Shown here one piece after another: positions 3,491 to 46,310 of a stretch of DNA of 64,000 nt (positions are counted from its first letter, which is position 1; every line of letters starts with the position of its first letter). Source of the DNA: Zygnema cylindricum (taxonomy: Eukaryota > Streptophyta > Zygnematophyceae > Zygnematales > Zygnemataceae); the NCBI GenBank assembly GCA_037447655.1, contig JBBHKE010000963.1:1-64000 (forward strand), written 5' to 3'. A program made the position numbers and the translations under genes. Under the pieces are notes generated by a model, which worked only from the letters and a program-made list of their open reading frames with translations, had not been told where the DNA came from and did not search any database.

Positions 3491-4377
3491 TTAAACATTT
3501 TTCCGTTTATTAAATTGTTCATTGCATCCTTTTTTTTCTGTTATTATTCCCATTCAGAGTGCGTTGTTATATTTTAATTTTGTTGTGGTTTTAAATTATT
3601 TGTACAGTATTAGTTTGGACCGTCGTATTTCCCTCTCAATCTATATCCAGACTTCTCAATAATTATCCATTAGTGCGCGTCTTTCTATGTTGTCGACTGC
3701 TAAGCATTGTTTTGTTTTTTTTAAGTATTAATTTTTGCGTGTGTTGCGATTTCCTTAAAGGGGCAACATACTAGCGACGACAGGTCTTGTCGCGGTGGAC
3801 GCGACGACATCATTTCGTCGCTTCAATGATGGATACGACAAAATAATTGAATGGGTGAGGATACCTGGTTAGATCGAAAGTGCGAATGACGGACGAGAGT
3901 GGTTCGTCGTTTAGACTAAACCACCGAAGATATCAGTTCAGACAATCCAACGTGGGTATTCTCGAATGTAATTCGCGGACGACGACGTTGTTTCTTCCAT
4001 GCAATATTGGGAAACTCGAAAAAGTCAAACGCTCGACGACATTCTGTCGTCGTTTGACTGTCGTTTATAAGTCGCAGGGACAACGGTTAAATTTTCCAAA
4101 TGTGAATAGTGGCCTACTTTTACAGCTGGACTATTTGAGTAAAGGTTTGCGTAAAAGTGTGTCTTTTAAGTTATTTTTGTCTCCCTTGACTGTGTATTAG
4201 TTTTTTTTCTTGTTAACCAATAGTTTTTTTTTTCAATGGAGGGCGGCCAACGACCATTCAAATGACTTCGCTCTGCCATTTCGAGGCGATATCGTCGAAT
4301 ACCAACGGCAACCGAGATGGGGGGTCATATACCTAGAGGGGAGAACTTAGAGAGGGAAAGGGATGCAACCGAAGGAG
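3491..4377. other. Non-coding stretch, no gene seen
   Basis: AT-rich to about 3750, then a CpG-rich part (3770-4060) with many CGACGA/GTCGTC words and small hairpins such as TGTCGCGGTGGACGCGACG. The open frame at 3880-4200 has no recognisable protein character. Confidence 0.5.
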
Positions 4378-4884
4378 TGTTAGTGTAAAAGAGGCAACAA
4401 TACACCACAACACGTTACAGTGCACAGCGGAAAACACCAAGGATCTTCCCGTAGCAGCAGCAGGAATACACAGAACTCACAGACAAGGTTATTTACTTGA
4501 GAGAAAGTACAAGGTTGCGCTAGCTGTGTCTGTCTACTTCAGGTGTCCCATTCACTAGGTCTACTTGCCTATTTAATCTAGCTAACTGCTAGTCAACTTA
4601 GTACTATACAGCTGTACACGTGGACCTTCGCGGCCAATCCAAGATCTATCCAAACTTCCTTCTAGAACTATACAGTTCAATCTACACAATTGCGGCGTTG
4701 CTATGCTGCGCTGCTACGCCGCTGCGCTACTAGTTGCTACGCCACTAAGTTGCTATGCTGCTATGCTGCGCTGGTCTGGAATCGCAGGTGCGGTGCTCTG
4801 GACTCGCAGTTGCGCTGCTCTGCACCCGCAGTTATAGCAGCCTAGCCCTAGCTACCAATTACCCAATTCTGTAACCCTGTTACA
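4378..4884 (-). repeat. Candidate solo LTR of a gypsy-type element
   Basis: Read on the minus strand it begins TGTAACAGGGTTACAG and ends CACTAACA, i.e. TG...CA ends of the type common in plant Ty3/gypsy LTRs. Its interior holds a degenerate GCTATGCTGCG/GCTACGCC repeat (about 4690-4830). I found no 5-bp target duplication (flanks AGGAG and CTTTT), and it is opposite in orientation to the gag-protease region just downstream, so this stays tentative. Confidence 0.35.
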
Positions 4885-4895
4885 CTTTTTTTCGT

Positions 4896-5810
4896 ATGTT
4901 ATTCGATATCGAAATGCGCGATCATGCATTCTGGTACCAATATCGATTTGACCTACGGGTTGCTTTCCCTCTTTTATGCCGTTACCTTCGCGGTTCGGCC
5001 CTTACTTTTTATTCCTGCAAGTATGATTCCGTACTTCTGATGACGAAGTTTTCTCCAGCTTTCGCTGGGAGTCTTGCTATTATAGAAAAACCAGAAATTC
5101 CCTATAAAGCGGCTATCCCGGAAGTCTTTGATCTCAACAACGATGTTATTACATCAGCAGTTGCGGAAATACCGCAACAGTTTGCTATAGTCGCACGTGC
5201 TGGAATCCCGCCACGACTAGCAATGACGATCCCTATACTGGATCTGCTCTCAGTTTGAAATATTGCAAGCGGAATACCGTATGGAAAACCCTGACAAAGT
5301 TCTCGAGTTAATGACCTTCGAACGCATATCAGGAGAGACCACCCCTGCCATGCGTGCTCGTATGAAAGCTCTTCGTGGAGCATTGATTGACCTGATGTCG
5401 GATGCTGAAGCTATCCAAAAATTTGTAGGGCAGTTTCCAAGTCAGTCTAAGAAATTTATCCAGAGTCATCTGAATCAAACCTACGGCTTAAAGTTCACTT
5501 TCGACCAAGCCGTCCAGCATGTTGTGGAATATGAAATGCAAAATTGTTGGTGGGAAGCCCATGACCGTCCTAAAGCTGTCGCGAAAAAACCGATTTTTTT
5601 ACCATGGAACAATCCTCGTCCTTACAATCGGCCTCCTAAGCTCCTAACCATGGGAACCCCACTAATTGCTCCGGAAATAGATTATGTTTTCGACGTGGGA
5701 AAACAGGGCATGATGCCCGAATGTGTCCAGACAAAACTGCTACGTGTACACATTGCAAGCAAAAATGACATTATGTCCAACGTTGTCATATAAAAAACCC
5801 AAAATTTTCT
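4896..5810 (+). pseudogene. Ty3/gypsy-type retrotransposon gag, decayed
   Basis: Open stretches at about 4896-5258 and 5263-5793 carry gag-like sequence (KVLELMTFERI, TPAMRARMKALRGAL, SHLNQTYG, FTFDQAVQHVVEYEM). At 5685-5786, in another frame, two CCHC zinc-knuckle patterns are readable, with the second Cys of the first knuckle changed to Arg and a TGA in the second. Gag would form the particle and bind RNA through the knuckles. Frame changes and stops make this copy dead. The spacer to the protease (5811-6150) is a proline/lysine and Met-rich linker, also broken. Confidence 0.75.
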
Positions 5811-6154
5811 TATCATAACCGAATTAAGAGTGGTGGCGTTCCCGCTCGATCCGCAAGACCAGTTCAATCGGTTAAAGAACCTAAAAAAGACACCACTCCA
5901 CCTAAGGTATCTCGAAGAGATACAAAACGTTTGGAAATGCAAGAGCAAATGGCGGTCATGATGAAAGAGCGGTTTGCAACCTTCATGGCTCAAATGAAGC
6001 CACAATTTATAGGCATGGCTCGCACCGTTGTACACATGCCCACGTTTGCATGTAGAATCTTACAAGATTTCACCGTCCAACAACGAGAGGCTATGTTCAA
6101 TAAAGGTTTGACGATCACAACCGTGACGAAAAAACTCCTGACACGCGTATTACG

Positions 6155-7024
6155 TTGTCATTTACTAAAGAACCTTCTCCTCCCATGCCCGAAACCGCTT
6201 CACCCATCGTGGTTGAAGCTCTCAACATTGTGGATCGAACCATACATGAAGCACATCGCGTGAAAGAACGCTTGTGCATTCTATCCAGTATGATTTTTGA
6301 CACTCCAAAACTCTCTTCTACTTGCGAAGGCTCAACTGCAGCTGCCGCTTTACAAGCAATGCAGTTGCACAAAAATCTTGCTGCTATTCAGCCTATTTCC
6401 GTAGAGGAGAGAAATTCCCTTGATCGTCACATCAATTTTTTGGATAACGGGAAGGGTTAATTGTTGATCAATGGTATAGCCCCTTCCTTGCCCCTCATGG
6501 ATACGAGTGCAAAGCCTGTCATATTGGGCCCTAGCTTTGCACTCAAGCTTGGTCTTACTCCGGACAAGCTTCAGCCCACCGCGACTCGCTTGTTAACATC
6601 AGCGGGTACAACCGAGCCAGTCTTAGGAATCACTAACAAACCGCTCGTCTTCCAGTTCCAGAATCGAACAGACACGGACTTTGTAGAGATTGCGGTGCAC
6701 GCTCTGGTCACTAAATGTAGTGACAATGAATGCCTAGTAGGACAAGACGTTATATTTCATGTAGAGGGTGGAATTCACATACATGATCAGACATTTTCTT
6801 ATAGAACCACTAACTTTCCAGAACGCAAAATCTACATTCTGCTAATTTCCGTTAGGAAACCCATGCCTTTTATGGCACATTTGACCACCTTCATGCCTTT
6901 ATTTTCAAAGAATTCAGTGGGGGCCGAAATACTTCATTCATTGTCAGCTGAAGAAATTCTACCCGATAGTTATTACTTGCCAGAAATTTTCAGTGACCGA
7001 GTATTTCTGATAGATACCACGTAA
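6155..7024 (+). pseudogene. Retroviral-type aspartic protease region, decayed
   Basis: One reading frame runs through 6155-7024 with an internal TAA at 6458-6460. After a linker it reads LLINGIAPSLPLMDTSAKPV, the strand-loop-Asp core of a pepsin-like retroviral protease (canonical DTGA, here DTSA), followed by GPSFALKLGL and the LTSAGTTEPVLG hairpin. It would cut Gag-Pol. The frame meets TAA at 7022-7024 and then continues, unshifted, into the methyltransferase, so protease and methyltransferase were probably one polyprotein. Confidence 0.75.
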
Positions 7025-8094
7025 TTTGATCGCATCTATAACCAAACCTTGTCAATTCCACTTTCTCCAGTCTTTCCTCTAATCCCAATCCCTACAAACT
7101 CGTTTGGGTTTCTTCCCATGTATTCGAATCCGGTCCAATTAAGACCTCAACCAAATGGATTGGTGATTTTGGACCTTTTCGCTGGAATAAGCACTCCCCT
7201 ATTTTTTTGTCTGCGAAATGGATTATTAATCCAATTTTATTATTCTGTCGAGATTGATCCTTTAGCATGGAAAGCACAAGTACATCATTGTAATCTGTTG
7301 CATTCCCAAAACGCGCATTTGTTACCAAAATCTGCATACGAGTATATGCATACTGCCCTCTCACAAGACATCCCGATTGTGGGCAATCATCACTTACTGG
7401 ATATAGGTCCAATCGATCTGGTTTTTGGCGGATGGGAGTGCCACGGAATGTCGCGGGCCGAGAAAGGTCTCGGTTTGGCCCATCCCAACACCAAATTATT
7501 TTTTGAATTGGTCCGCTTCCTGATTTCCTACAAACTATCGAACATCCTATGGGATATATCGTAGAAAATGTCGCCTCCTATAATAATCTAAGACCCACGA
7601 TCCTAGCTCATTATCAACCGATCGAACAAGTAATTTGTCCGCCCCTTATTATTGATGCCGCTCGCCACGATTCACTAGTTGACCGAGTTCGCTCCAAATG
7701 GACAAACCTGATCGATATTAGTCGACTCTGCGAGGCTAACCTGTCAGTTCGTCCTCCTCTTACAGATATTCAGGCTCCCCTTCTTCCTTTCCACAAGGTG
7801 CAGTCTTGCATTCAAAATAACTATCTCTTTTATTTCAATATCAATGTCCCGGTTCAACCTCTCAAGATTCTCCCTACCTTAGTTTTTTACCCACATTCAC
7901 ATGTATTCTCTAATGACGGTCCTGGCATGCTTCGAAACATTCATACCAGTGAGCTCGAAGAGCCTACCTCTACGGAGCGAGAACACCTCCTGCATTTCAT
8001 CGTTGGCACTACAACCGCTCTTGGTCTTACAAAACTTTAAAGATGCACTTTATTTGGTCGTGTCATGGACCTACAGTCTTTGTCTTTTTTTTAG
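7025..8094 (+). pseudogene. Retroelement-encoded C5-cytosine DNA methyltransferase, decayed by one frameshift and stops
   Basis: Motif I DLFAGIST (from 7172) binds S-adenosylmethionine; VEIDPLAW is the motif II acidic position; GGWECHGMSRA (catalytic Cys codon 7439-7441) is motif IV, with the usual Pro before Cys replaced by Glu; GLGLAHPNTKLFFELVRFL follows. A frameshift near 7550-7563 moves to the frame reading YIVENV (motif VI), then DAARHDSLVDRVRSKWTNL (motif VIII-type Arg block and the conserved WTNL), an ER-EHLLHFIVGTT target-recognition/motif IX area, and after TAA at 8038-8040 the motif X sequence LFGRVMDL. Stop TAG at 8092-8094. All landmarks of a full catalytic domain are present in order with no N-terminal targeting domain. 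Known precedent: LTR elements carrying DNMTs in charophytes and dinoflagellates. The copy itself is inactive as read. Confidence 0.85.
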
Positions 8095-8142
8095 GTCTTG
8101 GGTTTGCACTTGGTCGCCACTCTCAAGCACATCCGTCTCAAC

Positions 8143-8156
8143 CAGCTGGGGGGGGA
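8143..8156 (+). promoter_or_regulatory. Candidate polypurine tract 1
   Basis: AGCTGGGGGGGGAA, 55 bases after the methyltransferase stop. The only other sequence like it in the retroelement region is at the end of the integrase-PHD frame (12714). A TATA-like CTATATATAATCC follows at about 8329, which would suit the U3 region of a 3' LTR. No second LTR copy was found, so the LTR is not proved. Confidence 0.4.
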
Positions 8157-9540
8157 ATGCATCACTAAGTAAATTGTTCTGTCCTACTCTCAAAGGGACC
8201 ACATTTCATTTTTTCCTCTTTCCTTCTCCAATTCCACCAGTTTCGGAATCCTCTCTCTACGATTTCCTCAATCCTAGCCATATGTCTTGGTCTATCCCTG
8301 CATACACGGTTCTCTAGTCTGCAAGTTCTATATATAATCCACCCACTCCTCATTGGAGTGCATAAAACTCTGTGTGCTCCATTGCCCACAGAAATCCCAG
8401 ATCCAAAAGAAGCTAATCTCGATAGTGCCGACTCCAAGTTGATATAATCCTAAATGACTAACCCCTTGACAATCAGAAACCCATTATAACTACACCCCTG
8501 TGAAATAAGACTATTTGTGTGCTTAGTTCCACCACAGAATGCAAAGTTAGATTATGAGTTTTGGACACATTCACCCACTTTGACTTTCCCTTAGAAATGC
8601 AGCCACCCTGGCAAGAAAAATCTCTGACCCACTACACCCGTGTGTAGCCTTGACTCCTTTGAGTCCGCAGCAAAAAGAATCACTGTAAATGGTCAAGTAA
8701 ATTGATAGTTATGGCTGGCCAAAGTTTGCCTTTTATACAAGATGCTCTCTGGGAGAGGCGACTACCTACCCCAAAATTCTAAGTCCTATTCTCTCTCTAA
8801 GATCCTATCTACTGACATACAGCACCAATCACTTTACTGTACCGTACAGAAAAGTATAAGTGCAGGTGTACTTTTTGTACGACCATCGTACAATATGGCC
8901 GAAATGTCAACACATGTCATATCCCTATTTGTTTACGTAATCTCTGAAGTCGCCGCAATCCATTGTTGACGTACCACGTGTCACTAAACGTGGCGATGGC
9001 CGTAAAACGCCAAAAGTATATATCCCGCGATAGCGACGCCTATAGAGGCCATCCGATCAAATCTGGCTATATTTTTAGCCGTTGAAAATAACCGCGCGGT
9101 ATTTGTTTCGCGTTCGAAACAAATGCGCGATATCCGTTTCATACAATACATAAAACTGTACTCTGTACTATCTATAACTGTAACTATGCACTACGTTTAT
9201 ATTTCTCGTTAAATGAACTATTGTTTTTCTAACTATTTAAATACAAATCAAACCCCATGTGTACTAGCACTAGTCTTAGGCTTAACGGACAAAGCTTCCG
9301 TCTATCGGAATCTTGACGGACGGTAGGTTCCAATATAAATTCCTGGATCCGTCAAAATTCATTTTAGTAAACCTACCATTTATCTACACCTGTCTCTTTG
9401 GAGAGCTTAGGCAGCCATGGCTCTAGCTCCCTTTCTAGCGTTTAGTGACTACAACAAGTGTGGGGGCTTGGAGAAGGGAGTCAGAGGTTAACTGCCTCTG
9501 CGTTTTTTTCTATCCTAATAAAGACCTAGAAAATACTCAA
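8157..9540. other. Non-coding spacer between methyltransferase and reverse transcriptase regions; possible LTR remnants
   Basis: About 1.4 kb without recognisable protein. It has TATA-like (8329) and AATAAAG (about 9517) signals, CpG-rich palindromic words at 8960-9110, and an inverted GGTAGGTT/AACCTACC pair at about 9322-9380. It could be a diverged 3' LTR of the upstream element, an unrelated insertion, or linker of a single long element. Confidence 0.4.
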
Positions 9541-11350
9541 ATATCAACACTGCTTTTCCAACATGCAGCAAGAATCATCCGGTTAATTACCTTAAACATA
9601 CACCTGTGGCTTACGAGTTAGGACAAACGCTTATCGCAAATAAGGAGTTAGGTTTTGCACAAGCCATAAAGGCCATGACAACTGAGAATCCCGATGCTCC
9701 AAAATGGAAATTCGGCACCAATTTAACAAAGGCTAGACAAGAATTACTGAACGACGTTGTTTTACGGAATGTCGATGCCTTTGGTTTTTCAATAACCGAT
9801 GTGGGACGTCACACCACTTATAAGATGTTGATAGATCTCAAAGATGACCACGCGATATTTAAACCGAAACATCGTCTGTCACACAGTGAATGGGAAATGG
9901 TAGATAAGTGATGTGCCGAACTAGAGGAAGCTGGCCTAATCTATCAGTCAGACTCCACATTTGCAGCTCCCATCGTCATACCTCGGAAAAAGGATTCCGA
10001 GGGTAATTTTACTAACTGTCGAATGTGTATTGATTATCGTGAACTAAATGCTAAAACTATTCAAGATCCTCATCCCATGCCTCTTGCCGAAAAAATATTT
10101 GATCACGTAGGCGAGGCGAAGTATTTTAGTATCCTTGACCTCTGTCAGGGATTCAATCAAATTGAGATAGAGGAAAAAGATCGACGTAAAACTGTCTTTT
10201 AGGGTAGTGACGGCCGATAGGAATGGGCCGTAATGCCATTCGGACTAAAAAATGCTCCAGCGGTATTTGAAAAAGTCATGGACTCGGTTCTCGGAGGTTG
10301 AAAGTTTGCTAGATGTTACATCGATGACCTCATCATTGCCCCGCTACTATCGAAGAGCACGCAGCTCACATCGAATGGGTATTGACTTATTTTAAAAAAG
10401 GTCGGATTAAAGTGTCATCCCGCAAAATGCACCTTTAGAGCCGAGGGAGTACCTTACCTCGGCCATTTTATCTAGGCTCAGGGGATCACTCCTCTCGAAG
10501 CAAAGGTAGAGGCAATCAATAAATTGCCGGCTCTCACAAACCTCACAAGCCTGTGAGCCTTTCTCGGACTTGCTAATTATTATCGCAGGTTTGTATCTAA
10601 TTTCAGTACCATCGCATCGCCTTTAAACGACCTTCTCAAGAAAGAAGTGGCCTTTATATGGGGTCTTGATCAGATTTCCGCATTTCAAAAATTAAAAACT
10701 ACCTTATCGAGTGCTCCGATTCTCCGTTCCCCCTATCACAAACTCCCTTTTGGTCTCCAAACATATTTTGGAGAAACCAGAATCGCTGCCATTTTGACAC
10801 AAAGAGAGTTGAGCGGAGAGGAATACATAGTTGCTTTCGCGAGTAGAAGCAATAATCTTGCTGAATGGAATTATAGTAGTTACAAAGGGGAATGTCTAGC
10901 CGCGGTTTGAGGAGTCTTTCACTTCCGTCATTATTTGTACAAAAAGCCTTTCACACTTCTAACAAACCATCAGCCCTTACATTGGCCGATGACTAACGAT
11001 AAGCTTTCCGAGAAGCTAGCCTGATAGGCTTTAATTTTGCAAGAATATGACGTTGAAATAATTCACCGACCCTGTCTGCTTAGTCTAAACGCGGACGGAA
11101 TTTCCCGAAATCCTTTGCCACGAACGAGGAATAACGGAGTTCGAAAGAATTTCGATGACGACGATGATCTCGTCATGTCAGAGGGTTCTTATCTTACTTA
11201 CTGTCTGGCCTCTATTCCGAACCCTCGTCCCGCCACGGATCCTTGGCGTGATGGGCCTCTCATTCTTTTCCTTTCCTTCCAGACCTTCAAGTTCGGCACT
11301 ACCACTGACGAAGAAAACAGAGTGAAAAAGAGAGCCAAAAATAACCTTTG
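9541..11350 (+). pseudogene. Ty3/gypsy reverse transcriptase and RNase H, decayed
   Basis: The pre-RT and RT domains lie in one frame from 9541: KHRLS, FAAPIVIPRKKD, CRMCIDYRELNAKTIQD, SILDLCQGFNQIEIEEKDRR, MPFGLKNAPAVFEKVMD, and the active-site YIDD at 10317-10328. Stops at 9909 (TGA), 10200 (TAG), 10218 (TAG) and 10299 (TGA) all sit where the family has Trp or a similarly mutable codon. After a frameshift near 10340 come thumb and RNase H pieces: LANYYRRFVSN, then 10647-10910 with FASRSNNLAEWNYSSYKGE and 11037 onward IIHRPCLLSLNADGISR. The enzyme would copy element RNA to DNA; this copy cannot. Confidence 0.85.
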
Positions 11351-11375
11351 GCTCTGAGGATCTTTAGTTCGGTTA

Positions 11376-12746
11376 TTGGCAGATGGAAGCCATAGATACG
11401 TCCCTCGTCCTACCGAGCGGCTTTCTCTAATTGAGCAGATTCACACCGAGCTTGGTCACTACGGTACCAAGCGGACGTTAAGTCTGGTTCAGGCACGCTA
11501 TTGGTGGTCGGGAATGCAAGTTGATGTTGTTGCCAATCTACACAAGTGTGCCACCTGCGACCGTCTCCGAACTTCTTTCTCTAATCGGCAGACAACGCTC
11601 TACCCCTACCCATTAGGGGTTTATTCTATCGATGGTCGGTTGATCTGGCCGTCCCTTTTCCCATCTCACGTAGAGGAAAACAATACATCATGATTATGAT
11701 CAAAAAATTTAGTAAGTGGGTAGAAGTCGTAGCTCTGCCTCACAAGACAGCAAAGTTAACTACACAGCCTTTAAGGAACATGTCCTTATGGGATACGGTG
11801 CCCTAGCCGAGGTCTTATGGATCAAGGTACAGAATTTCGAGGAGAATTTCAAGATAAGCTTGATGAGGCTCTCATCGATCATCGTCGTACTAGTCCGATC
11901 ACTCTCAAGCCGATGGCTTGGCTGAACAGGCAGTCCAGACATTTAAGCGTGCCTTGCGTAAGCATTGCTTAGAAAAACACATTTTAGTTTGGGACGAGTC
12001 CCTCGGCTACATTACCATGTGATATCGCCTGTCATTTTAAGCTAGTCTGGCTAGTTTCAGCCCGTATTGTATTTTATTTGGGCGACAACCGTTGCTCGGT
12101 CGGAATATTCAGAAAGCTGCAAGTTTTTTGCTTCCGCTGATGTCTGACACTATCTTTTTGGAAGAACTCACTCGTCATGCTTTGATTTTTGACCTTGAAA
12201 TGCCCATGGCTTTTGATAATCATAATAATTACCCAGCATCGAGACACACTTTGGTTTGCAACCGCTCGAAGAGCCAGTTACAGGCCGCAACTGAAGCCCT
12301 ATCGGATGGGAGACTATGTGTATCTTTGCAGGCAATCTTATGACACTTTGGACACTGATATTTCAACACACATCCTACGCATAATCGAGGTGGATCCGAA
12401 CGGAATGTTGGGATTACAAGGAGCGGACACTTGGACTTTCCGCGAGCACTCCAAGAATTGTGCGCCATATTATTTACCAAATTTGTCACAAGATATGGAT
12501 CCCATGCAGATGCTGATTGCGGAGGCGACAGCATGTACCTTTTGCCATCGATCGGACGGGGAAACTACCATGTTACTTTGTGATCATTGCAATCAAGGGT
12601 TTCACATGGAGTGTTTAGTGCCACCATTGTTGGCGGATCCGGATGGTAACTGGTTTTGTCACGGATGTCGCGAGCTTCCGGTCATGTTGGCCAGCTCCTC
12701 TGTCGGCGATAGAGCTGGGGGGGGGATAAAACTGACTAGACCATAA
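11376..12746 (+). pseudogene. Integrase with C-terminal PHD finger, core broken but PHD intact
   Basis: HHCC zinc domain at 11430-11570 (HTELGHYGTKR ... CATCDRLR). The DDE core is spread over frames: SVDLA near 11640, MDQGTEFRGEF near 11820, and GLAEQAVQTFKRALRK near 11905. A final frame 12189-12746 gives the integrase tail (MGDYVYLCRQSYD ... HILRIIEVDPNG) and then a complete Cys4-His-Cys3 PHD finger at 12534-12668: CTFC, CDHC, H-x2-C, C-x2-C with the Trp two residues before the last pair. PHD fingers read histone H3 tails, so the likely role is steering integration to particular chromatin, as chromodomains do in chromoviruses; that role is inference. The frame ends over a G-run that may be the polypurine tract. 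Confidence 0.85.
12714..12730 (+). promoter_or_regulatory. Candidate polypurine tract 2
   Basis: AGAGCTGGGGGGGGGGAT at the 3' end of the integrase-PHD frame. It is the same kind of G-run, after AGCT, as at 8143. A 3' LTR would start just downstream; a TATA-like AATATAAATATTGG lies at about 13078. Confidence 0.5.
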
Positions 12747-13815
12747 CCAGCTAAGTCGTTGACCTTTCTTTTTCTTCCACCTTGCGTGTTGTTGTATTTA
12801 TACATTTTTCACTTTTATGTCTTATTTCATTCACATTAGTTTGTCTTCATTTGGGTTTAAATTGAGCACAGTTGATGATATTGCATGCATCTTCACGTTA
12901 TTTAACACATGCACGACATCCCCCATTTTTCCCTCCTCATCCGATTGCGGGTTTAAAGATGTAGGTTTAGAGTTTCGGGTTTGACGATTTTGCTTCGTTT
13001 GTGCGTATCGAGATCTTATTATGACTCTATTTACGAATTGTGCACACCTTGTTGCGGATTGGCAATGTAACGTTTTTAATATAAATATTGGCACATCGCA
13101 CCTTTGTTGCCACGTCTAGTCGATCTCTCGCATTTGGAAATTAATAATTTCGTAGCGCCACGTGGTATACATATCTGTTGGCCAGAGGTTGTAATAGTCA
13201 AAATTTTAGATACTCGAAACCGACATTTTTTTTTCAGAATGTGAACACCTTATATTTGACCGGGTTATGTCACGCTCCTAAATTGTTAACCGTTTCACGG
13301 TACGGGTTAACGAAAAAAAAAGTTAACCGAAACTCGATTTCTTTGGACTACTTGTACCCGTCCGTACCTTAATATGTACAAAATTAATGGTACATCTCCC
13401 TCATACCTTCCACGATATTAAGAGTAGGAAGTACAATAATGTTGGATTGTATGACAAGACAAAACCTTCAATTTTTTTCGTTTTTTGCTTACCCGACCAT
13501 ACCTGTTTTTTTTTTTTTTTCGTGCATCACCCGCCCAAATCCGTCCGACCCCTAAAATTTGGCACCCAAATCCGTTCCGGATCCGACGCGAGCGGTCGGG
13601 TAAGGTTCGGGTACGGATTCGGGTACCCGATTTCGACCTCTGCTGCTGGCCGTATCAGATACATAACTAATCGTAAAGTCGAAAAGACGAATACCGATGC
13701 GATGCGCTACGCGTATCTGCTTGCCCCGTATGTTCATCCGATTGAAGCTAAGCGATATGGAAATTGTCTTTGAGTAGGGTAAGCATTTTTGATCCGAGCA
13801 AAGTCTACAGTACAG
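12747..13815. other. Probable 3' LTR remnant and low-complexity sequence
   Basis: No convincing gene. The first 400 bases are pyrimidine-rich and could be an LTR. At about 13560-13640 there is a CGGGTA/TCGGGTACGG repetitive stretch that yields a Gly/Arg-rich open frame without protein character. Confidence 0.4.
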
Positions 13816-15141: not shown

Positions 15142-15235
15142 AACTCTTCTCCCCCTTTACCTCATCAACCCACCTCTCGAGTATTACTATTTTTTTGGTA
15201 GTTTCGAGGATTTAAAATCTGTTACACTCTCATTT

Positions 15236-16735
15236 TTTCTATCTAATTATGTATTTAATCTAATTATCTGCCTATTCAAGTTATCTCTAATCTAATTATC
15301 TATGTAATCTAATTATCTATCTAATCTAATTACCTGTCTAACTGTCGATATATTTGTCTAATTATATGTCTATCGATCTATCTATCTATCTATCTGTCTA
15401 TCTGTGTCTATCTAATTATCTAATTATCTATCTAATTATCTGTCTAATTATCTATCTAATCTAATTATCCATCTAAACTATTTATCTATCTAATCTAATT
15501 ATCTATCTAATTTAATTACCTATCTAATCTTATTCACTATCTAATCTAATTCACTATCTTATCTAATTATCTGTCAAATTATCTGTCCAATTATGTGTCA
15601 AATTATATAATCTAATTATCTGTCTATTTACCTGTCTAATTATCTGTCAAGTTATCTGTCAAATTATCTAATCTAATTATCTGTCTAATTATTTGTCTAA
15701 TTATGTAATCTAATTATTTGTCAAATTACCTATCTAATCTAATTATCTATCCAATCTAATTATCTACCTAATCTAATTATCTTTCTATGGTTATTCACTA
15801 TCTAATTTAGTTATCTATCTAATCTAATTATCTATCTAATTTAATTATCTATCTAATCTAATTATCTATGTAATCTATTTTTGTATCTAATCTCTTTCTG
15901 TATCTAATCTAATTTTCTGTCTAATTAACTGTATAATTATCTGTCCAATTATGCGTCATATGATCTAATTATCTATCTACGGTTATTCACTATCTAATCC
16001 AATTATCTATCTAATCTAATTATCAAGCTAACCTAATTATCTATCTAAGTTAATTATCTATCTAATCTAATTATCTATGTAATCTATTTTTCTATCTAAT
16101 CTATTTATGTATCTAATCTAATTATCTGTCAAATTATCTGTCCAATTATGTGTCAAATTATCTAATCTAATTATCTAATCTAATTTTCTGTCAATTTATC
16201 TGTCTAATTATCTGTCTAATTTTCTGTTTATCTATCTGCCAAATTATCTAAACTAATTATCTGTCTAGTTATCTTTCTAATTATCTGTTTAATTATCTGT
16301 CTAATTATATGTCTAATTTAATTATCTATCTTATCTAATTCACTATCTAATCTAATTCACTATCTAATCTAATTCACTATCTATTCTAATTCACAATCTA
16401 ATCTAATTCACTATCTAATCTAATTCACTCTCTAATCAGATTATCTATCTAATCTAATTACCTATCTAATCTAATTATCTGTCTAATCTAAATATCTATC
16501 TGATCTAATTATCTATCTAATCTAGTTCACTATCTAATTAGATTATCAATCTAATCTAATTATCTATCTAATCTAATTCAGTATCTACGGTTATTCACTA
16601 TTCAATCCAATTATCTATGCTAACCTAATTTTCTATCTAAGTTAATTATCTATCTAATCTAATTATCTATGCAATCCATTTTTCTGTCTAATCTATTTAT
16701 ATATCTAATCTAATTATCTGTCTAATTATTTGTAT
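15236..16735 (+). repeat. Degenerate TCTAATCTAATTATC satellite, left arm
   Basis: About 1.5 kb of TCTAATCTAATTATCTATC-type repeat with variants TCTGTC, TTCACTATC and CCAATTATG. It is the reverse complement in type of the block at 18775-20165. Confidence 0.95.
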
Positions 16736-17056: not shown

Positions 17057-18774
17057 GCCCATGTTAATGCCTAAGCATTCCCCATGTATGCCTTTTTGGT
17101 GGATCTTGGAACGTAAGAGTGACATAGTTTTGTAGTTTTTGTTGCTTTGGATTGTTTTACCTGTTTTTCAAATGTAAGGAGTGTTAGGATTTAGGAGATA
17201 GGAGTTATCATACAATATCATAGGTGTAATACGTCTCATAGTGTGTTTGTTACTACAATGTAATTGTTTTTGCAATTTTTTAATTTACTTCATTGTGAAG
17301 TAAGTATGCCAAAACAATCTATAACACAACCATTTTATAAAACACGATTTTCTTTTTGCAATATATGAGTATGTGTAAGAGCGCTAGTTTGTCATACTTA
17401 ATGTTTTACCGTGTGTTTGTAATTCAGCTATGGGAAACATGATGTTGTAACAGGTGAACAAATTCTTAGTTTTTACATTTAGTACGCAAACATGGTTTTT
17501 ACGTTATATATATTAGGGGACGAGCCCGCCCCAATCGCTGATCGCTGTCGCACCAGTGCCATGGACTATTTCATTGTGATTTGATTAGCGTTGACAGTTT
17601 CTCATTGCCGGTGGAATTTTCAATGATGACATTGCCTTAGAGGAAGGATTTTTTAGCAATGATACAACGTCTTTACTGCTTTTTAATTAGATGGCAATAT
17701 TGTTTTATTGCTGATTTGCAGTTCAACCGCGACACACTTACGTCGCCGGTTGGTCGGTTGAGTCAGTTGATCAGTCAGCTGTAACATGAATCATAACTGG
17801 TTTATAATCCAACAAGAAAAATGCCTCGTTGGTCGTTCATCATCCATGACAAAAGAAAAAAAAATTCAACATTCCATTGGTTTATAATCCAGCAACAAAA
17901 ATGCCTCGTCGTTGGGTGATTATCATCCATGATTAAAGAAAAAAAAATAAACATTACATAGCAGACGCAAACATGTACAAGACAAAATCATTTGGTAAAA
18001 AATAAAACAAAGTCATATATCAGTGAAATAAAGAGTAATAACATCGCCACTAAAAGTATTATTGGCTTAAAAATATGTAGCATTAAAAAAATTTTATTAC
18101 AATCATTTAGTAGTTATGACAAGAAAATTAATTATGGCTCCAAAATTTCTCTATTTTACACACTCCGAAACCGAATATCGGTCCTAAACTTCGGAAAATT
18201 TCTATACCTTTCCACATTCTCTTGAATCTTCTATCTATTCTCTCATTTGAATTCCATTTTTATACAAATCATTTCACTACAAGCGGGAAAATTATAAAGT
18301 CGAATGTAATATGCTGTCGGAAATAAATGAAAAACTTTGGCCTCAACCTGAAAAAAAAATAAGAGGATTTAGGTTAAATTGTTGATCCGTTAAAAGGTCT
18401 AGTTTTTAATGGTTTTTTAGGGTTTTTTGTGAACAACCAACCATTTGTTTTTCCTTGACTGTTTAGCTACATTTGTTTAATGTGATTTGATAAAACATTG
18501 GAGATAGTCTATTAATTCAAGAAAATACAAACCAGCCATTTTGTGATTGTACCACTTGACATGAGGCAGCATACGCATATCTAGGGAGAAAAATTCAGAA
18601 TCCCCACTGACAACTCCAAATATATTTTTTTCGCCTTCAAAAACTTCTCATTAGATTGATGAGACAATTTCCTATTTCAGTCTACTTGTTGAATTCCATA
18701 GGTGAGGTTAATTTCAGTAACGAACTTATAACTTAAAATGAAATAGACTTGTTAATGCAACATATGACAGATAA
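17057..18774. other. Non-coding core between satellite arms
   Basis: AT-rich with no gene seen. At about 17795-17950 a block of roughly 75 bases is tandemly duplicated (TGGTTTATAATCCAACAAG / TGGTTTATAATCCAGCAAC, each followed by AAAAATGCCTCGT and ATCATCCATGA). Confidence 0.6.
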
Positions 18775-20165
18775 GTAGATTAATTGAACAGATAATTAGA
18801 CAGATAATTAAACAGATAATTAGAAAGACAATTAGATTAGATAGATAATTAGATTAAATAGATCATTAGATTAGATAGATAAGTGGATTAGATAGATAAC
18901 TAGATTAGATAGTGAATTAGATTGGATAGATAATGAGATTAGATAGATAATTAGATCAGATAGATAATTAGATTAGATAGGTAATTAGATTAGATTGGTA
19001 ATTTGGCAAATAATTAGATTAGATAATTAGATTAGATAATATGACAGATAAATAGACAGATAATTAGATTAGATAGGTAATTAGATTAGATAGTCAATTA
19101 GATTAGATAGATAACTAGATTAGATAGTGCATTAGATTAGAAAGATAATTAAATTAGATAGATAATTAGATTAGATAATTAATTAGATAATTTGACAGAT
19201 AACTGGACAGATAATTATACAGATAACTAGACAGATAATTAGATTGGATAATAAGATTAGATAATTTGACACATAATCGGACAGATAATTTGACAGATAA
19301 TTTGATAGATAATTAGACAGATAATTAGACAGATATTTAGACAGATAATTAGATTAGATAGATAATTAGATTAGATTGATAATTAGATCAGATAGATAAT
19401 TAGATTAGATAGTGAATTAGATTAGAAAAATAATAAGATTAGATAGATAACTAGATTAGATAGTGAATTAGATTAGATAGTTAATTAGATTAGATTGATA
19501 ATTATCTTTCTAATCTAATGCACTATCTAATCTAGTTATTAATTTGACAGATAATTTGATAGATAATTAGACAGATAATTAGACAGATAATTAGACAGAT
19601 AATTAGATTAGATAGATAATTAGATTAGATAGATAATTAGATTAGATAGATAACTAGATTAGATAGTGAATTAGATTAGAAAGTTAATTAGATTAGATAG
19701 ATAATTAGATTATATAACCCTAATTAGATAATTGGACGGATAATTGGACAGATAATTAGACAGATAATTAGACGGATAAACGGATAATTAGACGTATAAT
19801 TAGACAGATAATTAGATTAGATAGATAATTAGATCAGATAGATAATTAGATTAGATAGATAATTAGATTAGATAGATAACTAGATTAGATAGTGAATTAA
19901 ATTAGAAAGATAATTAGATTAGATAATTGAATAGATAATTTGACAGGTAATTTGACAGATAATTAGAGAGATAATTATACAGGTAATTAGACAGATAATT
20001 AGATTAGATAATTAGATTACATAATTATACACATAATTGGACAGATAATTTGACACATAATTTGACAGATAATTAGATTAGATAGATAATTAGATTAGAT
20101 AGTGAATTGGATTAGAGAGAGAATTAGATAGGTTATATAGACAAAAAATTACCCAGATAATTAGA
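18775..20165 (-). repeat. Degenerate GATAATTAGATTAGATA satellite, right arm
   Basis: About 1.4 kb of the reverse-complement form of the 15236-16735 satellite. The two arms could pair as a giant imperfect hairpin with a 2-kb loop, the plan of foldback-type elements. Confidence 0.95.
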
Positions 20166-21651: not shown

Positions 21652-22029
21652 CTGTACCATCCGGAGCGCACCGATATCAGGGTTTTATCGTGAAAAATTA
21701 TTTTCTCTACAAGCCGAATAACATTCATTTGAGACGTCATGGCCTAGTGGAGAGCAGCTGCCAACCCTGATTCAAGCTTTCTTTGTTAGTGTAGAAGAAA
21801 ACTTCTGAGAAAAACGAAGTTGCCGGTGACAGCCAAGTCTACGTGCGGCAACTGCTCGGAACTATAGAAAGAAGGGAAACCGCATTTATTATGATGTGGT
21901 AAACGACAATGGTCATGGATGAAGTAACGCTGAGGCTCGCAGAACACAGCCAGTGTGAGATTTTTTTCCCAGATGGACTCTTTTGTGGCGTCAGCAGTTC
22001 CTTTTTGGAGAATCTCTCACAAGTTTCAG
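21652..22029. other. Region upstream of SURF6; true 5' exon not resolved
   Basis: The first SURF6 exon must lie here or slightly further left. ATG codons exist at about 21908, 21914 and 21973 but each is in a different frame from the DHLVEL exon, so at least one unseen splice is needed (or a one-base error joins the 21914 frame). Confidence 0.4.
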
Positions 22030-25000
22030 TGTGAATGCAGTTTTTGACCATCTTGTGGAACTTATTCCTCCAAAAATCTACTTGGCATCGGAGCAGCAGT
22101 CAACAGGTCCATCGGTGAGTTCCCTTTTGTTATATGGCATCGCATTAAGAAGTTTTTCATGCATCATAATAGAGCCCTAACTACTATATTGTAGTTACAA
22201 TAGCAATTACAGATTCTACAGTTGCCCTGACTGTACTTGGTATTCGGCTAACTGTTTTCAGCATGCATGTATGCTACACATTTCTTTTAATTCATACCTG
22301 TATTTATATTTCTGCACTGTTATGCAATTGATGGCTTTGATGGCATATGTTTCATACCTTCCGAGTGTCATATTCCGCGTCTTCGGTCCCTTTTTTCTTA
22401 TGTTTTTTTCACCTGACATTCCATGCGATTGGAAATCCTGCTAGAGGGACTTTACGAATTTTCAGTGTTTTACAGGGTTTCTGCATTATTGATTCTGAGG
22501 TCTATGGTTGAATCTTGAATTTTCGCTGATTAAAAAACTTTGGCACAAAATTTTTAAATGTACCAAACGTAAGGTTATATCTATGATTTTTTCTAACTTG
22601 CTGTTTCACTGGCCATCACCATATTATGCATGTGAAAAATCTTGAATGTAAAAATTGTTCGATAAAGTGCAACATAATACGAATATGAATATTTACTCTG
22701 AACTACGAAGCTGACAAATTGTGATCCTCTTTCAATCAATTTTGAAATATAGTCTACATATACCAGTTTTCAACCTTCTTGTTCTGTTGAGTCTATAAAT
22801 GAATGCAAGTCTAACAGGTCTCTATTTGTTAAACAGAAGTACATTCACAATAAAAGTGAGAAGGCCAAGGCTAAGGCAGAGGCAAAGGAACACTCAAAGA
22901 AGGCACGACGAGCCAAGGTCAGCTCATTTTCTGATAGTTCCAGTCGTGGTGATCTATGCATGTTTATGATGTGCTTTTGTCAATCATCACATAGACAGTG
23001 TTTTCCAATTCCCTGTTAAGTGAGTTTCCTAACCTTTCCTTTGTCAAGGCTAATAGGTTTAGGATGTAAAATGCGCTACATTCTTAAGTTGTAGCTTTTG
23101 TTCTTCCATGTCATATTGTGTCCAACTTTGGCATATCTTGCACGGCATTGGATGACCCTTACGTTTGTGTGTGGTGAGAGCAGTTGGACCCGTCCTCCTT
23201 TAAGACAACTTTGGACATCCAAAAGGAACACCAGGAAAAGGAGCAAGAAGCGTCTCTGAGCAAGGAGCATAATGCATTCAAGCCACCTTCAGGAGGTGAA
23301 ATTGATGAAACTGATAGAACTGATAGAGCTTTGGCTAGTCAACATTACTGGCAATAGGCAATGTGCAATGTTCAATGTGTGATGTTTATGATCCATCAAA
23401 CACGAAATGCTGAACACGACTTGGATCATAGCCGCTGTCCAAAGTGTAATTTTAGAGAACGATTGTGTCTATCGTCAAGCCCACATTATTATATTGCATT
23501 CCCAGGACAAATACATCACAGGAGATCAAGAGCTTCTAGCCGGTTCTCAAAACTTGATTTTAAAGATTGGTTCCTGGAGCTCTGTGGCCTCTCGGCAACA
23601 GTCTGCTGACAGCTGTCAGCTTTCTGAACGCTGGTTGCAGAGCGTGCTGCCACATACGAGCAGCTGCGAGAAAGGTTGCACCAAAGACTTTCGGCATTGA
23701 GGGCAAAGAGGAAGGCTGATGATGCCTCAGCTGCTGCAAGCAAGGCCCGAGACTGGCAGCTTAAGAAACGTGGAGGTTCTGCCTCTGCTCCAAAGCGTAA
23801 GCCTGGAGACTCAGATGGTCAAGTGGAGACAGACTATCCCAAGAAGGCCTTGGCAACTGCTACCGGAGCTTCAACAAAAGAAAGTGAATCCAAGGTATTG
23901 GCTCTTTGTTTACGCGTTTAGTTTTAACTGTTAAAAAGTACTGCTTTCACCGCAGTCTGAAAATGACATGCGCCATTTCTGTCTGTTGTGCAGGTTGAGG
24001 AGGTGCTGGACTTGCAGTATGGGCGATTATCAATGGGACAGGATGGCATAAAGCGTCCAAAGAAAAAACCACGCACGGAACGGCTTTTGGCTGAGGTAAA
24101 AGTTTGTTTATTCTATATCTAGGAGGACAGTCTTGAATTTGTGGAAAAAAACAAGTTTTCTCTTGGCCTCTAGCTGTGATCACTAATTGGTTCATACAAC
24201 TCGTGCTAAATCCATGAATTAACCAGCTGTAAACAGCTGAACTCCAATTGAAAACATGTGTACAAGATGTAAACTTAAATAGTTTCCCACTATTAAAGGC
24301 TGTTCACTAATTCCTTAAACCTTGAGGCTTTATTGCATGACCAAGAACTCCAAAAGAAGGAAAAATAAGAACCATACACATTTGCTACGCTGTCGTAGGT
24401 AGGCTACGTTTTTCTGGCTGAAATCTAATTGGGTGGGTAAATTTTGTATGGCCTTGGAATCCTCTTAGTTTCCATCTTTTGGGTTTTTCTCCGCCATGGT
24501 TCAAATGCTGTTTGTCAATTAACAAATGCGACTCAACTTCATTATGGAGATCACTTAATGCATGATCAAAGTGTATATTTGTCACAACTGGCTTGGCTGA
24601 CTCAAACCAAGATAGCTAAACGCGAGAACTGTTTAGTAAACTGGGTCAAAAAATAGCAAATAGGGAGTAAAACTCCTCGTCCCATCTCTGCCTTGAGACA
24701 CGTCTATACAGTATTTCTTAACTGGAAACCAAACGCTTGTTGTGGCATTTACTTTTACAAAGATGGTTCTTGGTTTACTTTGTACCCAGTTAAGGACATT
24801 GGATACTGAGGCCTTTTTCATCTAGGGTGGTATATCAATGGTCATGCTAGCTATTTGGTTGGATCCAGTATAAAGTCACCTTCAGGAGATTTTGAGTCTT
24901 TCTGCCTCCCTGTCTCTGTGTTCAGTTGTGCGGAGTGATGTGATTTTCAGTTTTGAGCGAAACTTCTATTTTAACGAGAAGGGACTTGTAACAAGCTGCT

Positions 25001-28000
25001 TTCATGCACCCTTGGGAATTATTTTTAATGAAATTGCACGCTAGTGCACCAAGTCTGACCTTTACTGTGGTTCACGTTCAGCTCCTTTGGTTTGAATTGC
25101 TTACGCTGAATCCTTCAACAGGTTCTTGAGTAGTTCCTTTCGCTTTGAGTTTTAGCTGGAGCTGGCCCTTTGACCTTCCTGTGTGTGTGCCACTAACCCA
25201 AAGGTTTATGGGCCATCTAAAGTCCATACTGTCCATATCGATAGTCTACTTTATATCGATAGGCTGCAGTTGATAGGTTACTGGACAATGGCAGGTATTG
25301 ATTGAATACCAGAACGTCTTTCTCTCTGTCTAAATCAGAGATCCATATCATGTTTTGGGGCAATGCTCGACGTCACCATGCGTTTGCTATTATAGTCGTC
25401 CTGCTTTTTGTGAAAATTCAAATCTGCATTGCTGGCGGTTGAGATCCACATGCGATTTAGTGGTCATGTACAGCATTGTTCTCGTTTTAACCATGTTTTT
25501 GCATATTGCTGAGAGGGTTTTTTTAGACTAATTTTTGTGCAAATGCACTAAAAATTTAGGTAACTTGTAGTAGATTTTGGGATAGGTTCTTTTTCCCTTC
25601 TGACATGCACAGATGATGTTTAAAAGGAACGTTCGGAAGCAAGAGTTACTTGTCTTCTGGTTTTCTCACCATGTTCACTTCTTCCTGGAGAAAAACCCTT
25701 AATAATGCTGACTAGTGAAGAACCTTGCTCTAATGTGGTTATATAGGCTATAATGTGGTTATTTAGTACCCTCATTGTTTGTATTGTGGCAAGGAAACTA
25801 CACCGCCCATCAGTTTTAGAGTTTAAGAATTATCAGCACTAACACTTTGTTAGAATTAACTACAAAAAATCACGTTTTGTGACGTGGTTTATTGTGGGCC
25901 ACGTACTTAAATAGTGTTATTAACACTATTAATATTTTCGGGTCAAAAAGCACTACCTTGAATTAGAGTGATTAACTCTAATAGCGCTGGGGGTGTATTG
26001 CTCTTCCGCAACAGGAAAGCAAACAAGAATTGGATGAGAGAAAAATATGTATTTTTTTTTTTTTCCTTTGATGAGTATTTGTTTGATTGTATAAATTTTT
26101 CTGTGGTTGTCTTTTTAGGCAGCGGCCCTGCAGGAGAAGCTATCTTCAGCCAAACAGTCGGGAGATGGTGAGGTATGTATTGACTCAGGCTATGGAAACT
26201 GGACCTTGTTTATTCATGTTTATAGTGTTTGGAGATCATGTATTGGATCAGATGTTATCTATTTTCTTTAGGTTACACTTGCGGCAAGCGTCTGCTTGTA
26301 ACACACTGCGAGTACAGACCTGTCTCCTTGTCTGTTCTCCAAGAAATGTTTTGGAACGAGTTTAGTTTGTCGAAGTTAATGCAATTTAGAGCTTGCGAAC
26401 AATCGTCCCATCGCCAATAAAGGATAGTACAGAACAATAGGTGCAGGTAAGCTGTAAAAAAATTATGGAACAGGAGGTGACAGTATTTTGCTGGGGAAAC
26501 TCAAGGACACTTGATGCCCAAGACGCTGTTAAACCTAGATCAGCTGGTTTCTGAAAATGTTTTTTGTGGATGGGGTCTTTGGGAGACAGGAAGTGAGCAC
26601 TTATACTTGGAATTCTGCAGCAGATCGAGCTGCAGGAAAAAAGGTAAAATAAAATTTCTCACGCGACAATGAGGTGAAATAATTAAGTCAGAGTGCTGAT
26701 TTGTTACGCTTAATAGCAAAGCTCTTTTTCATGCTGGTAAGTCTTGAATGGTGAGAACAAAATAAATAGTTGCATGTTTCTTTTTGCAGGTCTTGGATGA
26801 TCCTAAACTGTTAAAACGGACTTTGCAAAAACAGGAGAAAGCGCGCAAAAAAAGTACTGCACAATGGTAAGTTTGTTATTATATTGCAATTATAGGAGCA
26901 GAAAGTACTGAATTTACTCCCAGTAACTCCAGTAATGCACGGATTTTGGAAGACTGTTGGGGTACGGTTGTCGGTAATAACTGTATTCTACAGGCGTAAC
27001 ATAGTTGGGGTTTTCACGATGGAGAAATGTATGGCTCACAAGTGTATGTGTAGTTGAACGGCCCTGTACAAAAAAAAACGGAAAAAGGCAGTTAATGCAC
27101 CCACTTTATCAATGCGTATACTCTACAATGTCAGTTTACGCAACGAGGTGTGTTCAGTTGATAAATACTAAACACAAATAATGAGGCAATTCGTCCTTGC
27201 CTCTTTTCTCACGTCCGAGGTCGGGTTGTGAAATGAAACGATCTACTGCGACGCGCAGGAGGGGATGGGTCAAAGCTGCACTTTTGGATGTAGTAAAAAG
27301 AACCAAGTGTAGCAGTTCTACTGCAATTTGACTACTTCTGGTAACCGTACGATAACGGTCAACAGGTTTGGTGCGGAATTCGTACCGCTACTGGATTGTA
27401 AAAGGGAAAAGCCCGTCTGCGAAATTTCTACAATACTCCCCCATATCTCTTCAGATAATTAATCACCATGCAATGTTTTTTTTTTTAATTTCCAAACCAT
27501 CCTGTACTCTGCCCAAACAACAGACAACCGCCATATGCATGATTCCTTACATGTTAGAGGAAGTATGCTTAAGTACGGATACTGACATTACGGACATCCA
27601 TAAATTTGTAATTCACGTTTTCAGTAATTGCAGTACAAGCAGTAGTTATTGACATAACTTTACTCGAATCCGCGACATATCCAGTTATTCACCCTCAACT
27701 AATTACCATAGTAGAGATTTTTAATACTGCAAAAGGATGTCGAAGGAAAAACGGTTAAATTTGTTGTGGTTTGAACAAAAGCATATACGCTGTTGGTTGG
27801 GACCTCTTGTATATAACTGCATTATAACTGCAAGATCTGTCTTGTTTGGTGTGGCTAGGGAGGAGCGCAAAGGACGGGAGAAAGCATCAATAACTGCAAA
27901 ACAGGAGAAGAGAAAAGAACATTTGAATGAACGTTCAGACGCAAAAAAGAAAGCTCGTATTGCTAAGGTTTGTTCACTACTTTGTTTGCAGCATGATGAT

Positions 28001-28179
28001 TTCAATTAGCGAAGGATTTTGATTTTGCTCCAATTAGTGAACAGCTACCATATTGTATTTCTATGTTCGTCCTGTACTAATGTTTTTCGATGCTCTTCTA
28101 CACGCAGAGAGAAAAGAAGTTGCAAAGACCCGGCTTTGAGGGACGTGCGAAGGGCATTATTAACAAGGATGAAGGATAA
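22030..28179 (+). CDS. SURF6: SURF6/Rrp14-type ribosome biogenesis protein
   Basis: Nine coding exons with consistent phase: 22030-22114 (5' limit tentative), 22837-22917, 23184-23295, 23641-23894, 23994-24095, 26119-26172, 26790-26866, 27859-27967, 28108-28179 (TAA). The joined protein has the SURF6 N-terminal motif FDHLVELIPPKIYL, the Lys-rich KKARRAKLDPSSFKTTLD, the family core YEQLRERLHQRLSALRAKRK, the DLQYGRLSMG segment, DPKLLKRTLQKQEKARKKS, then QW|EERKGREKA, KQEKRKEHLNERSDAKKK and the terminal RPGFEGRAKG. The protein is a nucleolar RNA-binding factor for rRNA processing in both subunits in yeast and animals. Introns reach 2 kb; intron 5 contains a MITE (25.8-26.0 kb) and intron 3 a degenerate ATGT repeat. 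The start codon is not identified. Confidence 0.92.
25850..25997 (-). mobile_element. Decayed TACACC-type MITE inside SURF6 intron 5
   Basis: Ends ATTAGAGTGATTAACTCTAATAGCGCTGGGGGTGTA, i.e. a mutated TACACCG terminus on the minus strand with internal ACTCTAAT words and the ACTTAAATAGTG/ACGTGG words of the 203-bp family. Its left end is not clear. Confidence 0.55.
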
Positions 28180-33464: not shown

Positions 33465-34085
33465 TACACCGTGAATCGTTATTAGCCTTATGTACGCTAT
33501 ATCGGCACCCCAAAATTTTGACATTGATACCTTAAATATAATAAATTACACTATTTAAGGACGTGGACCATAATCTGCCACGTCTCCTGGCACTAAATTA
33601 GAATGAATGACGCTAATTTTTTCTTTACACTAATAATTTCTATACTCTAATAACGATTCAAGGTGTAGTGTTGGGTATCGAGGACCACTTGCCGATATTC
33701 AATATGTACCGAATTTTAGGTACCCGATAATCGATATATCGCTTCGATATATCGATTATCGAAATATCGCGATATATCGTATCAACGATATATCGAAAAT
33801 GAAAATTTTATTTTTTTTTTTCAAAACCGCCCCCCCCCCCCCCCCCCCCTCCCCCGAGCGCTCAGTGTGGGGGGGGGGGGGGGGGCTAAATTTCCGTACG
33901 ATTTTTCGTACATTTTCCGTACAGTTTTCCGTACTCTCACTGTACGGACAAGCAATTTTTGCGATATATATCGCGATAATTTATGTTGGTCCCGGCACGA
34001 TATATCGAGGAATCTGTTCGATCGATATTCGATATATCGAATATCGAAATTATCGCGATATGAATTTACCCGATACCCAACACTA
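33465..34085. mobile_element. hAT-like non-autonomous element, copy 1 (contains the MITE)
   Basis: Once the nested MITE is removed, ends are TAGTGTTGGG and CCCAACACTA. The 8-bp sequence CTAAAGAG flanks both sides (33457-33464 and 34086-34093), the target-duplication length of hAT transposons. The body is rich in CGATATATCG palindromes and has a C-run/G-run hairpin (33831-33887) and CCGTAC words. Confidence 0.8.
33467..33665. mobile_element. MITE of the 203-bp TACACCG family, inserted in the hAT-like copy 1
   Basis: CACCGTGAATCGTTATTAG ... CTAATAACGATTCAAGGTG, flanked by TA on both sides (33465-33466 and 33666-33667). Removing it restores the left end TAGTGTTGGG of the surrounding element. 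With the TA pair it is 203 bp, exactly the length of the 46311-46513 copy. Confidence 0.85.
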
Positions 34086-34116
34086 CTAAAGAGAGTACAC
34101 CGCGTATCGCTATTAG

Positions 34117-35786: not shown

Positions 35787-35874
35787 GCTATTAGTGTTAA
35801 TGTTTTTCTCGCCATTTCAAACGTTCTACGTGCACGGTTGTTTCGGTGTTAATCTGACGGTTGAAAATGGAAGG

Positions 35875-40120: not shown

Positions 40121-42202
<2,082 letters not shown>

Positions 42203-46068: not shown

Positions 46069-46310
46069 GTATATCGTCATTGGTGTTAATTTTTTTTTGC
46101 CACTTGAAACATCTTTTTTTTGTGCACACTTGTTCGATTGTTAATCTGTTAATCGATTGTACGTTAAGATTCTCACTTTCCAATTGGTGCTCTTTAATCA
46201 AAAATTGGACAAGTGGGCACAGAAAAAAGATGTGCGATACACTGATTTTAAGAGTTGTTCACACTTTTGTCATTTTCAGCAAAATCTCCACGGAATAGTA
46301 TTAACTCTCC

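Follow-up and report, generated by a model that had tools for sequence, protein, structure and literature searches.

Does this locus hold a retrotransposon with a C5 cytosine DNA methyltransferase (DNMT) built into its polyprotein, and is the Glu that precedes the catalytic Cys of this DNMT a sign of decay or a lineage trait? A first-pass annotation of the window (the whole 64,000-nucleotide stretch of Zygnema cylindricum DNA analysed here) raised both questions for positions 6155–8094, where a protease is directly followed by DNMT motifs.

A decayed Gypsy-type element occupies 8 kb of the window

The window element is a dead, decayed copy of a Gypsy-type retrotransposon. It is 5′-truncated and extends over 4884–12918 of the forward strand, on which all of its parts described below lie, as delimited by blastn against the relative C1915 and by a protein map. 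The stretches 4889–8361, 9550–10950 and 10951–12918 match C1915 with 85.8–88.2% identity in blastn. Relative to C1915, repeat A and about 1.3 kb beyond it are absent, and homology starts at 4889, equivalent to a position 1.3 kb beyond repeat A and 2.8 kb within the C1915 element. The interval 6155–8094 given earlier needs correction at both ends: 6155 falls inside the gag–protease linker, the DNMT reaches ~8156, and the element continues downstream with reverse transcriptase (RT), RNase H, integrase and a PHD finger, to 12707.

The gag region is broken into three frames (4884–6149; tblastn with the intact relative C1344, 55–60% identity). It includes two zinc knuckle remnants (5685–5786, from sequence and map), the first lacking one Cys and the second carrying a stop; the zinc knuckle of C1344 is a PF00098 match. 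The retropepsin-like protease (6461–7021, with its DTSA core at 6500–6511) was placed by the map to C1344, to which 6113–7021 is 59% identical in the tblastn map, and matches PF13650 with E 2.1e-4 at 22.4 bits, slightly under the 24.3-bit cutoff. A TAA stop (7022–7024) stands between the protease and the DNMT.

The DNMT3-type C5 cytosine methyltransferase domain (7025–8156) is itself broken. The C1344-based map follows it through three frames (7025–7522, 7525–8118 and a tail at 8067–8156), with frame changes at ~7522–7525 and ~8070–8118 and a TAA at 8038–8040. Of the single protease–DNMT frame interrupted only at 7022 that had been described, the stop stands but the single frame does not. Motifs I (DLFAGIST, 7172–7195), IV (GGWECHGMS, 7427–7453, with the Glu codon at 7436–7438 and the catalytic Cys at 7439–7441), VI (ENV, 7564–7572), VIII (RVRSKWTN, 7684–7707) and X (LFGRVMD, 8050–8070) can be read from the sequence in canonical order, as first noted. 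When the translation was compared with the PF00145 HMM, as the first-pass annotation had proposed, the half at 7025–7561 scored above the cutoff (22.9 versus 22 bits), with 23.7 bits across the frame change.

The DNMT is followed by a DNMT–RT linker (8183–8362; tblastn 48%), which a nested dispersed repeat (8362–9549), missing from C1915 at the corresponding point, separates from the RT. Sequence resembling this repeat lies near C1915 (74–76%) and C1344 (66%), outside their elements. The stop-broken RT (9550–10892) is 73% identical to that of C1344, its match beginning at 9528 on the protein map, and is recognised by PF00078 (E 1.4e-7, 9912–10199). RNase H, integrase and PHD finger occupy 10893–12707 (PF17919, PF17921, PF00628 and map); the integrase part seen by Pfam is H2C2, and the PHD finger lies at 12534–12668 (PF00628, E 3.8e-11). 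A polypurine-tract-like G-run (12717–12725), which three relatives share at the corresponding position, precedes repeat B (12726–12918), which ends in GCACGACA (12911–12918). Repeat B is 85.5% identical to B2 of the relative C829, and B1 of C829 falls within an 88.7% match over 10929–12918. Directly 3′ of it there is no second A or B, the window copy ending at B without A2, and a blastn of 4000–10000 against the window revealed no duplicate of any of its segments.

Other repeats are present in the window. Large A+T-rich arrays, built of 12- and 17-base units, lie at 15212–16616 and 18768–20003; the two are oppositely oriented and up to 85–87% complementary over ~170–210 bases, 2.2–3.7 kb apart. 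A long GA-rich simple repeat (31817–32692) contains several open frames on both strands, and 34001–36000 has the highest CpG observed/expected ratio of any 2-kb bin of the window (2.05), with ORFs that look repeated. A 257-aa ORF (57391–58164), which by eye we take to resemble the C-terminal portion of a LINE reverse transcriptase, has no Pfam match at E 0.1.

Relatives carry the protease and the methyltransferase in one frame

We took the N half of the DNMT as a query against the window's own assembly (352.8 Mb, 2689 contigs) and scored 150 of 1129 first-look candidates. The genome holds at least 150 matches (151 with the window), all listed ones at E≤1.6e-57, and their identity to the window DNMT ranges among the listed matches from 55 to 81%, the window itself apart. 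By hand count, 55 of the 150 listed matches, the window included, are free of stops in the N half. Since all seven intact relative DNMT domains match PF00145 (best E 1.2e-12) and the listed genome matches reach such E values, the DNMT match is beyond chance.

The longest open frame among the matches listed, 2395 aa in C1344, runs from the gag region and zinc knuckle through protease, DNMT, RT, RNase H and integrase to the PHD finger. Pfam recognises its zinc knuckle, RVT_1, RNase H, H2C2, rve and PHD pieces, the protease falling under the cutoff. C1407 and C449 likewise hold zinc knuckle, protease, DNMT and RT within one frame, and gag–protease–DNMT–RT is continuous in all three. The fusion of protease and DNMT is therefore real and inherited, and the original reading of an LTR-type element carrying a DNMT is borne out within the same genome: rather than a stand-alone host gene whose adjacency to a protease is peculiar to this locus, C1344, C1407 and C449 display the fusion. 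The genome-wide search for intact relatives and their motif IV, also suggested there, yielded the intact C1344 and, as described below, a prevailing Glu. C1344 has the Ty3/Gypsy order of protease, RT, RNase H and integrase, with H2C2 and an rve core, and on this domain order and the Pfam matches the family is assigned to the Gypsy type.

We also considered two separate elements, one with gag, protease and DNMT and the other with RT and integrase, as suggested by the G-run at ~8152 and the gap at 8040–9520. The one-frame relatives and the nested repeat rule this out; the G-run at the DNMT end encodes Gly residues present in relatives. Outside this genome, the protein database gave no relatives at E≤1e-3 with the single DNMT query or at E≤0.01 with the protease plus DNMT query, and none were confirmed among viral contigs or prokaryote genome contigs.

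Split repeats are combined with target duplications

Four of the nine loci read in long stretches have split direct repeats in the order A–coding–B–A–B. The identities of their A and B repeats, respectively, are 100% (931 bp) and 99.6% in C1344, 99.6 and 99.5% in C829, 99.5 and 99.5% in C1915, and 80 and 95.7% in C449. The outer ends are of the TG..CA form, TGTCATGC and GCACGACA, and 4-bp target duplications flank C1344 (TTGG), C829 (AAGG) and C1915 (CCCT); that of C449 agrees in three of four bases (TCAT/GCAT). The B1/A2 junction, GCACGACA-GC-TGTCATGC (GCACGACAGCTGTCATGC), has 142 exact occurrences in the genome and none for the reversed control. By hand count, it lies 2–5.5 kb 3′ on the same strand of 14 of 100 listed motif IV places, the other 86 being without it, and many B-GC-A junctions are remote from any listed motif IV place. 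At A2|B2, the A end is joined to sequence just beyond the G-run, with a few bases' play between copies.

No plain LTR pair, that is, two full direct terminal repeats, was recognised in the other five of the nine loci. C1407 reads B1-GC-A2-B2 and its A1 was not found, C284 has an altered B–A junction, and in C82, which carries other repeats, the order A–coding–B–A–B was not recognised. C2577 (L017/L018) and C783 (L023/L024) have the A start and the B end but no A2; at these two, both without a second A–B unit, no target duplication was seen by eye. Copies that have the start of A or the end of B but lack a second A–B unit (C783, C2577 and the window copy) could be insertions of one-repeat circles or products of later losses.

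Split repeats are usually tied to tyrosine recombinases, and PAT/DIRS-type elements combine split direct repeats with a tyrosine recombinase and are not known to leave target duplications. The present family shares the split direct repeats but differs in its rve integrase and target duplications. The Pfam hits of C1344 include an rve integrase and neither a tyrosine recombinase nor any other recombinase, and both the integrase signature D..LTDQGTEF..E and the RT signature YIDD are present. An ordinary tRNA primer site (TGG..) after A was not seen by eye in four copies. The CA ends and target duplications implicate the integrase, and the occurrence of split repeats together with a DDE integrase and target duplications of 4 bp suggests that these elements inserted from a circle.

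The motif IV Glu is a lineage trait

With the intact DNMTs as a profile, a search of the PDB gave 52 hits, of which 29 DNMT3 chains (DNMT3A, B and C) came first, DNMT3A with the best E of 5e-11; HaeIII and HhaI followed at ~1e-3 and DRM2 at 0.05. Phage methylases are about as similar: over the same ~120-residue stretch three of them score 56–67 bits versus 56–62 bits for DNMT3A. The N half of the DNMT matches 94 phage records (best E 4e-7), and the C half matches none. "DNMT3-type" is therefore a fair label on profile similarity but no pointer to capture from a host DNMT3, since the phage enzymes score about equally.

The Pro-Cys of motif IV is defining for C5 methyltransferases. It is present in the DNMT3 chains and in the three phage proteins that we inspected; the element DNMT differs from both. 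Among 33 fetched copies, mostly chosen to be stop-free (30 without a stop in the N half, and L005–L007 with stops), 30 have Glu ahead of the catalytic Cys, two have Asp, one has Val and none has Pro, so that Glu or Asp replaces Pro in 32 of the 33. The Glu codon is GAG in 24 and GAA in six. The catalytic Cys and the motif VI Glu are each retained in 32/33, and motif VIII reads HRVRSKWTN in 23, the other ten being one- or two-letter variants, two of them with a stop. Genome-wide, Trp-any-Cys-Gln/His-Gly-Met-Ser is matched exactly at 187 places, versus three for the reversed control; 94 of the 100 listed places have Glu by hand count, and the remaining six read Ile, Gly, Lys, Val, Val and a stop. 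When Pro is required in this context, the genome has no match and the reversed control two, a count confined to exact Trp-Pro-Cys-Gln/His-Gly-Met-Ser, which host DNMTs of another context would escape. These counts decide the choice left by the first-pass annotation in favour of a lineage trait, and decay is ruled out.

Divergence within the family indicates how long this trait has lasted. Between subfamilies, the DNMT (seven copies) has a pS of 0.75–0.81, which is saturated, and a pN of 0.12–0.19; the linker plus RT (four copies) behaves much the same, with pS 0.84–0.90 and pN 0.09–0.13. In close DNMT pairs, dN/dS is 0.19–0.40, i.e., not very low. Because synonymous divergence between subfamilies is saturated and pN is low, the Glu-Cys trait is old and most likely kept by selection.

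Base composition and what the methyltransferase may do

We consider it probable that the family is a Gypsy-type element in which a DNMT3-type DNMT follows the protease and precedes RT, with a PHD finger C-terminal to the integrase, that it moves through a circle, and that the DNMT marks the element's own cDNA or circle. Self-methylation of this kind is possible, and the selection seen on the DNMT fits it.

The base composition bears on this question. CpG is not depleted in the four elements examined (observed/expected 0.86–1.2), versus 0.59–0.60 in gene-like window DNA and 0.85 in the whole window, and ratios of this size give no sign of prolonged CG methylation in the elements. In the window copy, C-to-T changes, counted only at sites where C1915, C829 and C2577 agree, are most frequent at CHG (0.165), followed by CG (0.124) and CHH (0.086), with A/T transitions at 0.042. 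Transversions are likewise highest at CHG and CG, and consequently the CHG and CG excess of C-to-T changes is no proof of methylation. As a separate observation, the gene-like stretches of the window (22000–30000 and 38000–56000) have a CpG ratio of 0.59–0.60, below that of the retroelement, which may reflect CG methylation of host gene-like DNA.

A less probable but serious reading keeps the same element and has the DNMT-like domain work without methylating DNA, serving the particle structurally or by binding nucleic acid, or acting as an RNA enzyme. The Pro to Glu or Asp exchange in 32/33 fetched copies speaks for it, as a Glu replacing this Pro could hamper transfer of the methyl group, and so does the absence of CpG depletion from the elements. 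Moreover, the domain of a related element, KnitGypsy-Dnmt3, gave no methylation in yeast, a result that its authors call inconclusive in the available text (PMC5890265). Over saturated synonymous divergence, however, a domain without enzymatic function should probably have lost both the catalytic Cys and the motif VI Glu, each of which persists in 32/33.

Action of the DNMT on host chromatin at or around insertions, with the PHD finger perhaps choosing it and the element or its neighbours being quieted, appears unlikely. The PHD finger does share a polyprotein with the DNMT, copies are numerous, and the 5′ flanks are CpG-poorer than the element in three of four elements; other gene-like window DNA is poor likewise, however, so that nothing in this is specific to the flanks. 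That protease and DNMT are mere chance neighbours, with a host gene or second element beside a gag–protease fragment, is scarcely credible: the window RT lies ~1.4 kb from the DNMT across a gap devoid of long open frames, and a further G-run lies at the DNMT end, but the one open frame of relatives contradicts this, ~1.2 kb of the gap is the nested repeat missing in C1915, and that G-run encodes Gly residues kept in relatives.

A proposed circular cycle

For the favoured self-marking element, we propose the following cycle. The protease would release DNMT, RT and integrase in the same particle; as the DNMT adjoins protease and RT in the polyprotein, it is a likely passenger of that particle and could mark new DNA there. 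Reverse transcription, if it proceeds as in ordinary LTR elements, would yield a linear cDNA with B-GC-A terminal repeats after the G-run, which could close into a two-repeat circle with an A|B junction. The integrase would cut the inverted GCACGACA-GC-TGTCATGC between B and A, drop the GC and insert the product; a cut at this internal inverted site would yield A–coding–B–GC–A|B exactly, minus the GC. The DNMT most likely would methylate the cDNA or circle of the element before or at insertion, and the window copy would be a dead descendant of such a cycle. The more specific proposal that a working Glu-Cys methyltransferase marks the circular intermediate, and that a retroviral-type integrase inserts it from the internal inverted B–A site, we put forward only tentatively, judging it rather doubtful as a whole.

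Relation to known elements

In the available text of de Mendoza et al. 2018 (PMC5890265), KnitGypsy-Dnmt3 of Klebsormidium nitens is described as a Dnmt3 in a Gypsy Pol, without introns, with a DIRS-like repeat order and with purifying selection on the DNMT. Judged by that text, it is the nearest published element, and the window element is of the same kind: both have an intron-free Dnmt3-type DNMT in a Gypsy Pol polyprotein, the same repeat order and purifying selection. KnitGypsy-Dnmt3 being known here from the text of that paper, the apparent differences are the Glu for Pro in motif IV and the many candidates in the present genome (1129); K. nitens copies are said there to be fewer than those of Symbiodinium, and element DNMTs to keep key residues. 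SymbioDIRS-Dnmt3 of Symbiodinium (PMC5890265), as described in the same text, shares a Dnmt3 in Pol and the order A–coding–B–A–B but has a tyrosine recombinase, in contrast to the rve-type (DDE) integrase and target duplications found here. The text mentions target duplications for SymbioLINE-Dnmt only, and the terms PHD, target site and circular have no occurrences in the main text. In their available text, PMC12344493 reports that streptophyte and dinoflagellate retrotransposons include DNMT3 members, and PMC6338049 discusses possible roles of such DNMTs. Relative to these published texts, the present family adds a prevailing Glu-Cys motif, a PHD finger, split-repeat ends flanked by target duplications, and a large number of copies.

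A large family with young-looking copies thus joins the known DNMT-carrying retrotransposons. Its Glu, retained over long divergence, offers a natural test of the need for Pro in the Pro-Cys motif, and the propagation of a split-repeat element by a retroviral-type integrase becomes testable. If the specific cycle proposed above were true, an LTR-type enzyme set would drive a circular, DIRS-like cycle that carries an epigenetic tag of its own.
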